Below, one piece after another: positions 1 to 5,205 of a stretch of DNA of 5,205 nucleotides. Made by a program: the position numbers and the translations under genes. How positions within the stretch are numbered: the first letter of the stretch is position 1; the number at the start of each line of letters is the position of its first letter. Under the pieces are notes generated by a model that worked only from the letters and a program-made list of their open reading frames with translations, ran no database searches and was not told the origin of the DNA. The DNA comes from Acidobacteriota bacterium. GTDB lineage: Bacteria > Acidobacteriota > Vicinamibacteria > Vicinamibacterales > UBA2999. The stretch covers positions 1 through 5,205 of the forward strand of contig JACCSI010000510.1 in the NCBI GenBank assembly GCA_013813075.1. The letters are read 5' to 3'.

Positions 1-127
1 CGCCTTGCGCGCGAGCCGCGTCCTGACGGTCTGGAAGATTCTGGCGGTTGCCGCGCAACTGTGCGTCGGCGTGAGTGCTGACCGCGAGAAAAGCGGCCGC
101 AAGCATTACAACTGCTGTTCGTGCCAT
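1..127 (-). CDS. Partial exported protein, N-terminus only (signal peptide)
   Basis: The minus strand has an ATG at 127-125 and stays open to the left edge, giving 42 complete codons. The protein begins MARTAVVMLAAAFLAVSTHA and continues DAQLRGNRQNLPDRQDAARA. This is a classic Sec signal peptide: Arg3, a hydrophobic core at about residues 5-16, a small-residue region ending HADAQ, and probable cleavage after Ala20 or Ala22. The visible mature part is hydrophilic and rich in Gln, Arg, Asn and Asp. A GAGGTG Shine-Dalgarno lies 6 nt upstream of the ATG and supports this start over the internal Met8, which would lose the charged n-region. The gene faces away from the ATPase gene across a 239-bp spacer. 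The mature protein cannot be identified from 42 residues. It is probably periplasmic or secreted; a lipoprotein is unlikely because no lipobox cysteine is visible. Confidence 0.75.
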   Translation of the reverse strand, partial: MARTAVVMLAAAFLAVSTHADAQLRGNRQNLPDRQDAARAQG

Positions 128-133
128 GAGATA

Positions 134-139
134 CACCTC
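134..139 (-). promoter_or_regulatory. Shine-Dalgarno site of the partial exported-protein gene
   Basis: The minus strand reads GAGGTG here, 6 nt before the ATG at 127-125. It is the main support for choosing that ATG. I see no convincing -10/-35 pair upstream of it. Confidence 0.6.
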
Positions 140-192
140 GTCTGCCGTAACGTTGCAGGTTCAGTGCCACGGGAAACGTCACCCAGACACTA

Positions 193-207
193 CGAGCCCC
201 AGGCTCG
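193..207. repeat. Perfect inverted repeat, 6-bp arms, 3-nt loop
   Basis: The sequence is CGAGCC-CCA-GGCTCG. It lies in the divergent spacer, 66 bp upstream of the exported-protein start and 160 bp upstream of the ATPase start. It could be an operator half-site pair or a small hairpin. No T-run follows on either strand, so it is not a typical intrinsic terminator. Confidence 0.5.
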
Positions 208-244
208 CACTCCAAAGCTGACCCACCATCAAACACGAGGAACG

Positions 245-268
245 GCGTCTAGTCGCACGACGCTAGTC
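245..268. repeat. Small nested repeats (CTAGTC direct, GCGTC/GACGC inverted)
   Basis: CTAGTC occurs at 249-254 and again at 263-268, a 14-bp period. GCGTC (245-249) and GACGC (259-263) form an inverted pair with a 9-nt loop. Each is short enough to occur by chance in GC-rich DNA. They are listed because they cluster with other repeats in this spacer. Confidence 0.25.
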
Positions 269-289
269 AGAAGCAGCGCCGCTCCGACT

Positions 290-316
290 CCTGCGGCCGA
301 CGCGGCGCCTGCGGCC
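290..316. repeat. 9-bp direct repeat CCTGCGGCC, 18-bp period
   Basis: CCTGCGGCC is found at 290-298 and 308-316, directly upstream of the phased CGTAA array. It may be a binding-site pair for a regulator of the ATPase gene, or a chance GC-rich repeat. Confidence 0.35.
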
Positions 317-330
317 AACCATTGCCAATT

Positions 331-367
331 ACGTAACTCTACGTAATGATGACGTAAAGTTCCGTAA
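331..367 (+). repeat. Four helically phased CGTAA repeats reaching the ATPase start codon
   Basis: CGTAA occurs at 332-336, 342-346, 353-357 and 363-367. The spacings are 10, 11 and 10 bp, close to one DNA turn per repeat. The first three copies are ACGTAA and the fourth is CCGTAA. The first copy sits in a perfect 8-bp palindrome, TTACGTAA (329-336). The final A of the fourth copy is the first base of the ATG at 367-369. Such phasing puts every copy on one face of the helix, as expected for cooperative protein binding. Binding here would cover the translation start and probably the promoter, so repression is the simplest reading. No recognisable Shine-Dalgarno fits in this stretch. The third copy also supplies the stop of a three-codon frame, ATG ATG ACG TAA (346-357). 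Confidence 0.75.
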
Positions 368-1518
368 TGAAGACCCACAACCCGTTCGTCTACGGCGAAA
401 TTGTCGGCGCCGCGGCCTTTGCCGACCGCGACGCGGAGCGGGCGCGGCTGGCGCAGGACCTGATGGAAGGGCAGAAGGTGTTCCTCATCTCGCCTCGCCG
501 CTACGGCAAGTCATCGCTCATTCGGGATGTGATGCGCACGCTGTCCCAACAGCACATCCTGACGGTGGAAGTGACCGTAGCCGCGTCAAGTTCCTACATC
601 GGGTTTCTCGAATCCTACGCACGCGCGCTCGTGGCCGCTGACACGCCGCCCAATCGGCTGCGGCGATGGGCATCGGAGCTGCTCGACAGCGTGCGACCCG
701 AACTGCGCTTCGACGCGCGGCCCGGACGGGACGCGGCGTTCTCGCTTGCCTTTCCAGCCGTGCGAACCGCGCGTGAAGCCGCCAGGCTGGCGGCCGAAGT
801 CTTTGCCTTGCCTGGCAAGATTGCCGCGGCGCGGCGGCAGCGCATGGCGATTGCGCTCGACGAGTTCCAGACCATTGCGACATTCGACGGCGGCAACGTC
901 GAGCACGCGTTGCGGGCCGCCGTGCAGGACCAGCGGCAGGTTGGCTATGTGTTTGCCGGGTCGGAGCCGTCCCTGATGGAGCGGATGCTCACCCCGAAGC
1001 GACCGTTCTACAAGGCCGGACCGGTCATGCGGCTGGAGAAGATTCGAGAAGCCGAGTTCTCGGCATTCATCGAGGGGCGGTTCAAGGCCACTGGTTTGTC
1101 GTTCGAGCCAGGGCTGGGCGACGCCATCGTCGAGCTCGCCGCGAACGTTCCTTATGACGTGCAGCGCCTTGCGCACGAAGCGTGGGACGACGTTCGCGCC
1201 GCCAGAAGAAAGGCGATCGGCCTCGACGACTTGCATCAGACGCTGATCCGACTGCTCGGCGAGCAACAGATGGTGTTCGAGGAGTCGTGGCAACGCCTGA
1301 CGCTGCCGCAACGTGCGGTGTTGCGTGCAATCGTGCTCGAAGGCGGTCGCGAACTGCTGTCCGCGGATGTGCGCACCCGGCATCGGTTGCCTGGCGCGTC
1401 AAGCGTTCAGTCGGCGCTGGCCGCCCTGGTCAAGCAGGACATCTGTCAAAAAGAGGACGGCCGCTACGTCGTCAACGACTCGCTTTACCGTGAGTGGGTT
1501 GTCCGCATCACGTATTGA
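367..1518 (+). CDS. P-loop ATPase (archaeal-type ATPase_2/AAA class) with winged-helix C-terminus
   Basis: The protein has 383 residues. It opens with the family-typical NPFVYGEIVG (5-14) and an FADRDAE box (18-24). The Walker A is SPRRYGKSSL (42-51), with K48 and S49 binding the phosphates; the usual first Gly is Ser. The Walker B is AIALDEFQ (161-168), with D165 and E166. A sensor-like strand, YVFAGSEPSLM (194-204), is followed by KRPFY (211-215), as in homologues. The last ~75 residues (about 308-383) resemble a winged helix and end in LYREWV, another family signature. There is no signal peptide or membrane span, so it should be cytosolic. The start is firm: an in-frame TAA at 355-357 leaves 367 as the first usable codon, and no clear Shine-Dalgarno precedes it. 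The 3' end overlaps mscL by 11 bp on the opposite strand. The substrate and partner are unknown. Relatives are usually annotated only as ATP-binding proteins, and a DNA-linked or STAND-like regulatory role is inference. Confidence 0.9.
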   Translation: MKTHNPFVYGEIVGAAAFADRDAERARLAQDLMEGQKVFLISPRRYGKSSLIRDVMRTLSQQHILTVEVTVAASSSYIGFLESYARALVAADTPPNRLRRWASELLDSVRPELRFDARPGRDAAFSLAFPAVRTAREAARLAAEVFALPGKIAAARRQRMAIALDEFQTIATFDGGNVEHALRAAVQDQRQVGYVFAGSEPSLMERMLTPKRPFYKAGPVMRLEKIREAEFSAFIEGRFKATGLSFEPGLGDAIVELAANVPYDVQRLAHEAWDDVRAARRKAIGLDDLHQTLIRLLGEQQMVFEESWQRLTLPQRAVLRAIVLEGGRELLSADVRTRHRLPGASSVQSALAALVKQDICQKEDGRYVVNDSLYREWVVRITY

Positions 1519-1939
1519 GGTCCGCGCAGCACGCCGCGCACCGGGTCGCACCGAACGGAATTGCCGTCAAGCACCAAGGGCAGGCCTTGGTGGCGACCGC
1601 AATCGGCGCTCTGAAGCGGTTCGCCTGCCGCACCAGCAGGAACACCGCAAACCCAACGATCAGGAAGTGCACGATCTCGTTGATGAAGGCGCCGTACGCG
1701 AGCACCGGGATGCCCGCCTCCTTGGCCTGCACCAGGGATAACGGGGCGCCCTTGCTGTAATCGAGGATCACAAACAGGCTCGAGAAATCGGCGCCTCCCA
1801 GCAGCAGGCCGATCGGCGGCATCAAGACGCCTTCCACGAATGCCGTGACGACACGGCCGAACGCCGCGCCGATGACCACTGCCACTGCCAGGTCGATCAC
1901 ATTACCGCGAGCGATGAACGCGCGGAACTCCGTTAACAT
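1508..1939 (-). CDS. mscL: Large-conductance mechanosensitive channel MscL with zinc-ribbon-like tail
   Basis: The protein has 143 residues and forms the inner-membrane emergency valve that opens under hypo-osmotic stress. The N-terminus carries the MscL hallmark FRAFIARGNVIDLAVAVVIG (5-24). TM1 spans about 14-43 and ends in MPPIGLLLGG (40-49). The periplasmic loop runs from about 50 to 78, and TM2 (about 80-104) contains INEIVHFLIVGFAVF. The E. coli pore-constriction residue G22 corresponds to A20, as in the M. tuberculosis channel. After TM2 the usual amphipathic helical bundle is replaced by KACPWCLTAIPF...TRCAACCADL, with C120, C123, C134 and C137 in a CxxC-x10-CxxC arrangement suited to one zinc ion. 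Similar tails occur in other bacterial MscL proteins. A strong Shine-Dalgarno 8 nt upstream fixes the start. The gene is divergent from the rhomboid gene and overlaps the ATPase gene tail to tail. Confidence 0.95.
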   Translation of the reverse strand: MLTEFRAFIARGNVIDLAVAVVIGAAFGRVVTAFVEGVLMPPIGLLLGGADFSSLFVILDYSKGAPLSLVQAKEAGIPVLAYGAFINEIVHFLIVGFAVFLLVRQANRFRAPIAVATKACPWCLTAIPFGATRCAACCADLNT

Positions 1940-1947
1940 TTGTCAGG

Positions 1948-1955
1948 CTCCTCCC
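1948..1955 (-). promoter_or_regulatory. Shine-Dalgarno site of mscL
   Basis: The minus strand reads GGGAGGAG, 8 nt before the ATG at 1939-1937. It is the strongest ribosome site in the window and contrasts with the apparently SD-less starts of the rhomboid and ABC ATPase genes. Confidence 0.8.
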
Positions 1956-2016
1956 GGCGACACAGTAGCGCATTCGGTCGTGGCGCGCGCCGGACGCCGA
2001 CTGTTTCGTCACGCGC

Positions 2017-2022
2017 TACAAT
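2017..2022 (+). promoter_or_regulatory. Putative -10 element for a leaderless rhomboid transcript
   Basis: TACAAT matches the TATAAT consensus at five of six positions and ends 9 nt before the rhomboid ATG at 2032. Transcription would begin at or within a few bases of the start codon, and no Shine-Dalgarno is present, so a leaderless mRNA is likely. No good -35 hexamer is seen at the expected distance, so the promoter call is tentative. Confidence 0.4.
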
Positions 2023-2031
2023 TCGATCTAG

Positions 2032-2796
2032 ATGATTCCGTACCACGACGAGAACGAGACGCAGCGGACCGCGTACGTGACGATGGCGATCATCGTGCTC
2101 TGTGCACTCGCCTGGGTCGTGCTGCAGGGCTTGGGCGCAGAGGGGTCGTTGGTGAGCTCGGTGTGCGAACTCGGACTCATCCCCGGCGAGCTGACGGGGA
2201 TGCTGCGCGCCGGGATGTCCTTCCCGATGACCGAGGAAGCGCGCTGCGTGATCAACCCAGGGCCGCAGTACTTCAACGTGCTGTCGTCGATGTTCCTGCA
2301 CGGCGGATGGATGCACCTCATCGGCAACATGTGGTTCCTGTGGCTGTTCGGCAACAACATCGAGGACTCGATGACGCGGCCGCGCTTTATCGCGTTTTAT
2401 CTTCTCTGCGGCGTCGGCGCAGCCCTGGCGCAGGTGGTCGCGGCGCCGGACTCGTTTGTGCCGATGGTCGGTGCCTCAGGCGCGATTAGCGGGGTGATGG
2501 GGGGCTATCTGGTGCTGTATCCACGTGTTCGCGTGTTTACGATCCTGCCGCTCGGGTTTTTCTTCACCACCATCACCCTCCCCGCCTGGGGGATGCTGGT
2601 CTACTGGATGGTCATTCAGATATTCGGCGGGCTGGCACAGAGCGTGGCAAAGCAGGGTGGCGGCGTGGCGTTCTGGGCGCACATCGGCGGGTTCGTGGCG
2701 GGCGTCGTCCTGATCAAGATATTCGCCAAGAGCAATCACATCGCTGCGCACGAGGCGCAGGATTATCGGCCTCAGCGGGTCGGTTGGGGCGAGTAG
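2032..2796 (+). CDS. Rhomboid-family intramembrane serine protease
   Basis: This 254-residue protein should cleave transmembrane substrates inside the membrane with a Ser-His dyad. The start MIPYHDENETQRTAYVT matches the typical short cytosolic N-terminus of this bacterial subgroup. TM1 is about 14-33. A long extracytoplasmic loop (about 34-90) holds C45 and C72, which could form a disulfide. The next conserved block is FLHGGWMHLIGNMWFLWLFG (88-107), where H95 and N99 match the HxxxN oxyanion-hole motif. The catalytic serine is S149 in GASGAISG (147-154), and the dyad histidine is H217 in AHIGGFVAG (216-224). Six to seven spans are predicted. The tail after residue 232 is short and hydrophilic, and no extra soluble domain is fused. 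The start lacks a Shine-Dalgarno but has a TACAAT element just upstream. The 3' end overlaps the convergent permease gene by 25 bp. The substrate cannot be read from the context. Confidence 0.93.
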   Translation: MIPYHDENETQRTAYVTMAIIVLCALAWVVLQGLGAEGSLVSSVCELGLIPGELTGMLRAGMSFPMTEEARCVINPGPQYFNVLSSMFLHGGWMHLIGNMWFLWLFGNNIEDSMTRPRFIAFYLLCGVGAALAQVVAAPDSFVPMVGASGAISGVMGGYLVLYPRVRVFTILPLGFFFTTITLPAWGMLVYWMVIQIFGGLAQSVAKQGGGVAFWAHIGGFVAGVVLIKIFAKSNHIAAHEAQDYRPQRVGWGE

Positions 2797-4363
2797 CGAG
2801 AGGCTCGGAGCACCAGCAGCCGGTTGACCAGCCACGACAGCAGTATCAGCAGCGAGGCCGTGACAGCGATGCGCATGGCCGACACGTAGACCCATACTTG
2901 GAGTACGACAACCAACGCGTTGCCGCCAATCATCACGACAATGATCCAGAGGGTGGTGCTGGCGCTACCCATCCGTTTTTCCGGTGGCGACGCGAACGGA
3001 AGCCGCGGGTTGATGACCATCGTCAACTGCAGAGCAAGGTGTCCGACCAGGCCCAACATGGCTGCGTGCAACAGGGCGCGGCCGACATCGCCGCCGTAGC
3101 GCCACGCGAAGAGTGGCCAGAGCAGCCCGATGAACGGCAGCAGGAAATAGGCAACCGTGACGTTCTTCAGGGCGATCACGAGGCGTCCTGTGTTAGACGG
3201 CGTGACGGCGTAGATCCACGCGGCGCGATAGGCGTCACTCGCGCCCAGTTGCTGGGTGAGAATGGACGGGAACAGCAGCACGGCCATGGCCATCAAGTCG
3301 GGGCCGCCATCGCCAAAGTCCATGAACAGGTAGATCAGGACCATGGGCACGATGCCGAAGATGCCCAGCCGGACACGATTGTCGTGGCGAAAATGCGCGA
3401 GCACGAGCAAGGACACCGCACGGCCCTCCGCACGCGAAAAGAACCATGCCCGACGCGGTGCGCGACCCGCATGACCCCGGATCGGCTCGGGCGTGGCGGT
3501 CAGCGGCAGGGCACCGAGACGCTCGGCGTAGTCCTCGCCAAGACGTCCGCGTAGCGCGCCGATGAGCGCCGCCAGAATGGCGATGGAAAGCGCCGCACGT
3601 ATCCAGGTCTGCGCGGTCGCGACGCCGGTTGCGATCTCGAGATAGCTGGCGAACCAGGCGGGCGGCAGCAGCAAGAGCCACTTTTCGCGCGGCATCGCCA
3701 TCCCGCTGATGGCGCCCCGCCCCGCGGTTTGCATCACCACCATGAAACCGCCGTACGCCAGAATGCCAAGGCCCATCTGCAAGTAGCCGAGCGCACGTTG
3801 CAGTCGTGCCGCGCTCACTCTGCGAAGAATCGCACCGTAGCCGGCCACCAATGCCAGGGTGAGGGCCAGCGCGCACGCGTAAAGCGCGGTTGCCGCGGCC
3901 ACCCCGCGGGCCGCGCTGACACCGTGCGCGAGGGTGAATGCGATAACTGGCGGGTAGGCCATCAACGTCGTGACGAGGAACGTGTGAAACAGGACGTTGG
4001 TGAGGCGGATCGCCAGAAAGGTACGGGAAGACACCGGTCTCGGCGCCAGGATGGCGTAATCGATGGTCGACAGGATCGTGGCGCCGTGTTGAGTCAACAC
4101 CGACGTCGAGACAACGAACGTCATGTAGGTCAGCGTCAAGGTGCCAGTCAGCAGCACGTCCGGATTCAGCACGACGAGCACTGCGGCGGCCATCCCGAAC
4201 ATGCCAAAGACGACGGCCATCATCAGCCAGCCGCCGAGACTTCGCAGCGAGTAGCTGGCCGTGGCCTGTGCGGCCGGGGGCCGGAAATCGCCGCGAAGCA
4301 ATGTGCGGCTGACAGCTTTCCATTGCTCGTAATCGATGCCGGCTCTTGCGAACAACGCCGCCA

Positions 4364-4364
<1 letters not shown>
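2772..4364 (-). CDS. ABC transporter permease, ABC-2-like multi-span membrane protein
   Basis: This 530-residue integral membrane protein is the likely channel partner of the ABC ATPase encoded just upstream. I place hydrophobic spans near residues 45-67, 73-93, 120-146, 155-179, 190-212, 228-248, 255-272, 333-349, 355-372, 400-420, 428-450, 470-495 and 498-518, about twelve in all. A hydrophilic cytosolic linker (about 272-330), rich in Arg and Glu, splits it into two halves. This suggests two fused six-span ABC-2 modules in one chain. A short cytosolic N-terminus (1-40) contains DYEQWKAVSR and precedes the first span; there is no cleavable signal. The ATG at 4364-4362 shares its A with the ATPase stop (TGATG) and lacks a clear Shine-Dalgarno, so translation is probably by re-initiation. 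I do not recognise a named family, and the exported substrate is unknown. The 3' end overlaps the rhomboid gene by 25 bp. Confidence 0.82.
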
Positions 4365-5128
<764 letters not shown>

Positions 5129-5135
5129 GACGGGG

Positions 5136-5165
5136 AGTCTACAAAAGTTCAAGTTCGAGGCACAA
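5136..5165 (-). promoter_or_regulatory. Putative promoter of the ABC operon (leaderless start)
   Basis: Read on the minus strand, TTGTGC (5165-5160) could be a -35 and TAGACT (5141-5136) a -10, with an 18-bp spacer. Only 7 nt separate the -10 from the ATG at 5128-5126. No Shine-Dalgarno is present, which fits a leaderless mRNA. Each hexamer is only a partial consensus match (3/6 and 4/6). The promoter would overlap the GTTCG repeat cluster. Confidence 0.3.
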
Positions 5166-5187
5166 AGTTCGAGTTCGCAGTTCGCAG
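5146..5187. repeat. Cluster of short degenerate AGTTCG repeats
   Basis: GTTC occurs at 5147-5150, 5153-5156, 5167-5170, 5173-5176 and 5180-5183, with periods of 6, 14, 6 and 7 bp. The copies extend as AGTTCAA, AGTTCGAGG, AGTTCGAG and two AGTTCGCAG/GTTCGCAG units. It lies upstream of the ABC operon, and its right end may continue beyond the window. From general familiarity, similar low-complexity AGTTCGA runs are common between genes in some acidobacterial genomes. The units are too short and too close together for a CRISPR array. Confidence 0.6.
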
Positions 5188-5190
5188 TCT

Positions 5191-5202
5191 GGGGCTCTCC
5201 CC
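5191..5202. repeat. GGGG-CTCT-CCCC inverted repeat
   Basis: A perfect 4-bp GC stem with a 4-nt loop lies at the right edge, next to the GTTCG repeats. The arms could extend outside the window through GCAG (5184-5187) and CTGC (5202-5205), although a TCT bulge intervenes. It could be part of a hairpin for an off-window neighbour, but too little sequence is visible to decide. Confidence 0.25.
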
Positions 5203-5205
5203 TGC

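Follow-up and report, generated by a model that had tools for sequence, protein, structure and literature searches.

What binds a short repeat that runs straight into the start codon of an ATPase gene? The question is raised by a stretch of 5,205 nucleotides from an Acidobacteriota bacterium (GenBank assembly GCA_013813075.1, contig JACCSI010000510.1, positions 1 to 5,205; the whole stretch is called the window here), in which copies of CGTAA lie directly upstream of a gene for a 383-residue ATPase. We find that this array is two tandem dyads, TTACG-N8-CGTAA, with a period of 21 base pairs (bp) and a gap of 3 bp, reaching the ATG at position 367. Comparison of related sequences indicates that nearly every close relative with the ATPase gene keeps the array in front of it, and that many distant bacteria and archaea have the array in a form changed in spacing or letters. 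We think it probable that the two palindromes are an operator, predicted to be bound by the ATPase itself through its predicted C-terminal winged helix, and that the protein thereby represses its own promoter. The features concerned are the following.

322 to 350, plus strand: predicted sigma-70-like promoter from a promoter scan, with a -35 element TTGCCA at 322-327, a 17-bp spacer and a -10 element AATGAT at 345-350
328 to 347, no strand: dyad 1, ATTACG-N8-CGTAAT (core 329-346, 0 mismatches to TTACG-N8-CGTAA), from the repeat finder and pattern matching
349 to 368, no strand: dyad 2, ATGACG-N8-CGTAAT (core 350-367, one mismatch), overlapping the start codon, from the repeat finder and pattern matching
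367 to 1,518, plus strand: ATPase gene, 383 residues, with a predicted AAA+ domain, from the open reading frame (ORF), Pfam matches below cut-off, conserved columns, an AlphaFold2 (AF2) model and a fold match
1,303 to 1,515, plus strand: predicted C-terminal winged helix, residues 313-383, from DSSP on the AF2 model and from alignments

Tandem dyads at an ATPase start codon

A preliminary description of this DNA had reported four CGTAA copies at intervals of 10, 11 and 10 bp, the last sharing a base with the start codon. A letter search bore this out, placing the copies on the plus strand at 332, 342, 353 and 363, with the final A of the last copy serving as the first base of the ATG. The copies had been taken for single sites phased by one helical turn, and that part requires correction, since each unit is an 18-bp dyad and the period is 21 bp, or two turns. 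A reverse-strand copy of CGTAA lies at 329-333, and the repeat finder returned both a 21-nucleotide direct repeat (328-348 and 349-369, 76% identical) and a pair of inverted arms (328-347 and 349-368, 85% complementary).

A single dyad with up to two mismatches is unexceptional, two or more being found in 46 of 200 shuffles of the window. The double dyad, allowing three mismatches in 20 positions, has one match in the window and none in 200 dinucleotide shuffles, and the same place is its only occurrence in the whole genome of origin (3,359,267 bases, 84% complete), where the reversed control pattern gave 0. The array is far above chance and is not frequent at other genes of its own genome. 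No Rfam family attains its gathering score in the window, where an RNA element was looked for.

The array coincides with the best candidate promoter. TTGCCA-17-AATGAT is the sole promoter-like site between 200 and 1620 (mean of 0.1 in shuffles) and also ranks first within the upstream 130 bp (p 0.005 against shuffles). Its -35 element abuts dyad 1, its -10 element spans the junction of the two dyads, and it predicts a transcription start near 357, inside dyad 2. Because the array covers the predicted -10 element and start site, the ATPase seated on it would block RNA polymerase. In the mechanism that we propose, the ATPase rather than another protein would bind the dyads, each dyad would accommodate a pair of winged helices, and the ATP/ADP state might tune DNA binding, as reported for one regulation step by the AAA+-winged-helix protein Orc1-2. 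The outcome would be a portable, self-limiting AAA+-winged-helix module.

The array among close relatives

We searched 99 genomes, 98 of them relatives of the one that holds the window. A match of any kind to the ATPase was present in 53, of which 50 were counted as having orthologues or orthologue fragments and three (G005, G040 and G079) were excluded as distant. Of 50 loci taken, we excluded L077, whose homologue is only 31% identical, and L079, which is a fragment at a contig end (its array had been detected in the genome search), leaving 48 including the window. The double dyad, with at most three mismatches in 20, is present in 45 of these 48 orthologous loci. Under a laxer count (at most three mismatches in 10 per dyad), 47 of the 48 carry two to four dyads: two dyads in 38 loci, three in 8 and four in 1. 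The spacing of the dyads in 47 orthologous loci is 21 bp save for two steps of 23, and no more than 54 bp separate the array from the conserved Asn-Pro codons, L062 (130 bp) and L063 (144 bp) being the exceptions. In both of these loci, some 120-140 bp of extra, partly repetitive-looking DNA stands between array and start in the manner of an insertion, and the array is still kept. When the dyads were stacked (104 units), TTACG and CGTAA proved near-invariant and the centre weakly constrained. A second sample compared 59 loci, 37 of them already in the first set; among the 22 new ones the double dyad was found in 18 at up to three mismatches and in 21 at up to four. One homologue of the Acidobacteria set, L184, is without TTACG dyads at 1460-1500 (10 mismatches) and has repeated CGCACGT units just 5' of its start.

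Promoter elements recur in other arrays as well. At L122 and L208-L211, TTGACA is followed after 17 bp by TATAAA, TATTAT or TACATT, which belongs to the first half-site or extends into it. In 17 of the 48 loci, the promoter-proximal dyad contains TATAAT or TATACT six bases 5' of the ATG, a position that predicts a leaderless transcript. A conserved dyad array at the gene's own promoter is a trait of autorepressed DNA-binding regulators and is present here; autoregulation is likely on this comparative evidence.

Array and gene go together across the 99 genomes: 46 have both, 4 the ATPase only, 3 the array only and 46 neither (Fisher p 9e-20). The four with an ATPase and no array call are G046, G054, G083 and G095; G083 lacks the start of the gene, and the arrays of G046 and G095 are present at four mismatches. 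Away from the orthologues, the 99 genomes hold five double-dyad places (four at three mismatches and one, in G098, at one mismatch), and the reversed control also gave five. The orphan double dyad of G098 lies in L032 around 1501 (G098:C44:2175-2213); it may be a leftover of gene loss, or the assembly may lack the ATPase gene. There are 101 perfect single dyads, 58 at ATPase loci and 43 elsewhere. Since those elsewhere are fewer than the 82 of the reversed control, there is no sign of a regulon among the perfect single dyads and double-dyad sites of the 99 genomes. Both comparisons proposed in the preliminary description were carried through, and neither refuted its proposal: the array is present upstream of homologues and is not frequent at unrelated genes.

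We examined 20 fetched neighbourhoods together with the window, after removing every ORF that overlaps the ATPase. The largest family of neighbouring ORFs was found at 10 of the 21 loci, and among the window's neighbours only an ABC-transporter ORF belongs to any family. One block of neighbours is common to eight or nine loci; other surroundings vary and the array is nonetheless present. The preliminary description had suggested an autoregulated ATPase-DNA unit, and the comparative side of that proposal stands, the array being kept at orthologue starts, nearly private to them and carried with the gene into new neighbourhoods.

The neighbourhoods also bear on two other explanations. Could the array instead mark the edge of a mobile ATPase cassette, where recombination or insertion took place, as the preliminary description had offered? 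The gene is patchy, with any match in just 53 of the 99 genomes, and it is found in differing neighbourhoods, as a cassette would be. The array, however, stands on the 5' side alone; the window holds no 3' partner for it, and the genomes have few other sites, essentially none. Two scans found no viral-contig relatives, and the 12 plasmid records and one phage record that were recovered are every one below 60% identity. We give the cassette explanation almost no credence. It is also improbable, if somewhat less so, that an ATP-dependent oligomer of the Orc1/Cdc6 or TnsC kind nucleates on the array, with a role beyond repression such as that of iterons or origin boxes beside their own initiator gene. 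The overlap with promoter elements and start codon is explanation enough, the most widely shared gene family reaches just 10 of the 21 neighbourhoods, and similarity of fold is no proof of function.

Downstream in the window, ORFs at 1508-1939 (minus strand), 2032-2796 (plus) and 4364-5152 (minus) match the MscL, rhomboid and ABC transporter families. The MscL ORF is the nearest neighbour, on the opposite strand, and overlaps the end of the ATPase gene by 11 bases. Naive single-linkage clustering of ORFs had produced clusters spanning 17-21 loci, which were mostly the ATPase and its overlapping frames mixed with other ORFs. It had also suggested an ATPase-like upstream ORF in G033 and G036; tblastn found none, and we took it for a clustering artefact.

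The ATPase, its recognition helix and distant homologues

Conserved columns of the alignment include RRYGKSS at residues 44-50 and DEFQ at 165-168, which we take to be the Walker A and Walker B motifs. The protein matches AAA_16, AAA_22, AAA_14 and ATPase_2, all under the Pfam cut-off; ATPase_2 (PF01637, archaeal ATPase) scores 23.1 bits and misses its curated cut-off of 33.2. Many close homologues carry a precomputed PF01637 label, and the protein looks like a divergent relative of that family. The nSTAND1 score is 20 (cut-off 27.1), and the best NCBIfam match is far under cut-off, so that no named family was assigned from that source. One protein search scored 6467 matches, whose displayed source names are mostly hypothetical or uncharacterized protein. 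Among the PADLOC anti-phage defence models, searched for a possible defence-system identity, there were weak matches only, the best being mad8 (E 0.0039, 14.8 bits).

The AF2 model has a mean predicted local distance difference test score of 91.3, and its fold is nearest to PDB entries 2qen and 2fna over residues 4-380. The winged helix that the preliminary description had thought probable is predicted in the model at high confidence. Its third helix, residues 344-356, holds SSVQ at 345-348 and is presumably the recognition helix, by general knowledge of winged helices.

Homologues only 24-39% identical to the window protein also have repeats 5' of their starts; in most of those examined the array is unlike that of the window yet stands in a similar position. 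Their hosts include Aminicenantes, Elusimicrobia, Hakubella, Methanophagales/ANME-1 archaea and Desulfobacterales, among others. The commonest distant form is TTATG-N8-CGTTAYG-N8-CATAA, that is, 18-bp dyads of which neighbours overlap by 3 bp, giving a 15-bp period. At three mismatches a search for the 15-bp pattern was uninformative, the control matching equally often, and we therefore searched at one. At that threshold nine of the 10 distant genomes searched contained TTAYG-N8-CGTTAYG-N8-CRTAA, each of them at the ATPase and G370 at one other place too; the reversed control gave one match over all 10. Other distant homologues have unrelated letters and the same 15-bp period. Upstream DNA of 32 distant homologues was compared with itself, and in 23 cases the strict top self-match falls at an offset of 15, as it does in 29 of the 930 segments of those loci that served as controls; the top offset is a different one in L108, L135, L138, L139, L196 and L201, and L122 is tied. 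Same-face phasing, to which the preliminary description had given weight, does not hold as a general trait, the period being 15 bp in so many distant relatives. In L138 (Desulfobacterales) and L139 (Deltaproteobacteria) the centre of the dyad is N7, and inspection by eye suggests the same on Geobacter plasmid pSD (L218).

The letters of the half-site appear to be related to the protein. All 17 distant homologues whose upstream DNA has a TTAYG-N7/8-CRTAA dyad carry Gln at the position of Gln348, and 10 of the 14 that have no such dyad lack it. The Gln of the recognition helix thus seems to track the TTAYG half-site, imperfectly. The Rokubacterial homologue L199, in which this Gln is replaced by Ala, has a long TTTCG/CGAAA array at 1375-1475, with two double units 57 bp apart.

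These observations help to decide whether the dyads are instead the site of a different host protein, a transcription factor that controls the ATPase gene alone. The dyad resembles the operator of an ordinary dimeric repressor, binding by the ATPase itself is only predicted, and a regulator encoded elsewhere in the genome would slip past the neighbourhood test. Yet the TTAYG-N8-CRTAA dyad accompanies the ATPase in groups as far apart as the window's order, ANME-1 archaea and Elusimicrobia, so that a separate factor would have to follow the gene across domains; no regulon for it is visible in the genomes, and changes in the half-sites tend to go with changes in the recognition helix of the ATPase itself. 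We regard a separate factor as unlikely and, from the comparison of sequences, infer direct binding and repression by the ATPase.

Several observations weigh against autorepression through a private operator. In orthologues L018 and L067 the double dyad is recovered only when four mismatches are allowed, L030 has no array in its 205 bp of available upstream DNA, and in L062, L063 and L173 the array is 130-151 bp away from the start. Some of the loci that were counted had also served to derive the pattern, and the 22 further loci are the independent sample. A promoter-like pair scored above 95% of mononucleotide shuffles in only 11 of the 19 upstream regions scanned, and the promoter-proximal dyad of the window lacks the TATAAT found in 17 relatives. 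Three genomes have an array-like match and no ATPase (G098 at one mismatch, G037 and G042 at three each), and at the two sites inspected, those of G098 and G042, no ATPase remnant lies beside the array. Among distant homologues, the 15-bp self-match is individually non-significant (P above 0.05) in 14 of 26, and the case for this period rests on the recurrence of one offset across homologues. Inspection by eye shows no evident array at L216, L217 and L219, of which two are homologues on Bacteroidales plasmids and one is a faecal phage contig. Finally, the correlation between Gln and dyad ignores shared ancestry, and L108, L109, L134 and L136 retain the Gln without a TTAYG-N7/8-CRTAA dyad.

As a separate observation, the distant homologue on Bacteroides plasmid pCACC737_3 (L217) is followed directly by an annotated site-specific integrase gene.

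A wider proposal is possible, though we hold it tentatively and would not call it probable. Bacterial and archaeal AAA+-winged-helix ATPases may be a family that moves about as one-gene, self-wired units, each clade's protein reading its own tandem operator. The operator letters (TTAYG, TTTCG, CTACTAG and others) and the packing (15 or 21 bp) would co-evolve with the recognition helix, and an Orc1/TnsC-like nucleotide-gated oligomer would assemble only at its own promoter. To this ATPase family a conserved, near-private operator would lend a concrete, testable activity, and to work on its structures a DNA ligand. Dyads in archaea and bacteria, in two packings and several half-site variants, make a natural series on how AAA+-winged-helix proteins read DNA, and the same series could teach how nucleotide state is coupled to binding.

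Comparison with known systems

The nearest folds are those of the archaeal AAA+ ATPases SSO1545 (2fna) and PABY2304 (2qen), which match the ATPase over both the AAA+ domain and the C-terminal winged helix at just 16-19% identity; their PDB deposits are titled conserved hypothetical protein or Walker-type ATPase. A PDB profile search (E up to 0.001) returned only these two entries and no Orc1/Cdc6, the best stretch of the match covering profile positions 12-254 and 97-263, with the winged helix outside it. In the model, the ATPase shares with the Orc1/Cdc6 initiators (2v1u, 2qby) a fold and a domain order, AAA+ followed by a C-terminal winged helix. Those initiators bind origin boxes at replication origins, whereas no such role is indicated for this ATPase.

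STAND regulators such as MalT and IniR are large multidomain proteins with further sensor domains. Extra domains of that type are missing here, the 383 residues being accounted for in the AF2 model by the AAA+ domain and the winged helix. Like this ATPase as we read it, IniR (PMC5760070) and MalT (PMC10427625) couple an ATPase to DNA binding. The IniR report likens that protein's ATPase domain to SSO1545 and describes control of a single operon; IniR has 818 residues and a MalT-like domain and activates another operon (PMC5760070), in contrast to the 383-residue protein with AAA+ and winged helix only. Among open-access PMC papers, judged by titles and the beginnings of abstracts, we recognised none describing an operator at this ATPase family, though one may exist.

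Another close parallel is Orc1-2 of Saccharolobus islandicus. It is presented as a non-initiator Orc1/Cdc6 protein that regulates transcription and has a footprint on its own promoter, with an AAA+ domain and a winged helix like those of this ATPase (PMC9738581). It is described there as a global DNA-damage regulator acting through a hexamer element at several promoters, whereas here a tandem dyad is nearly private to one gene (PMC9738581). The system in the window looks like one of the autoregulated DNA-binding ATPases, a known kind, with a near-private, operator-like array of tandem dyads.
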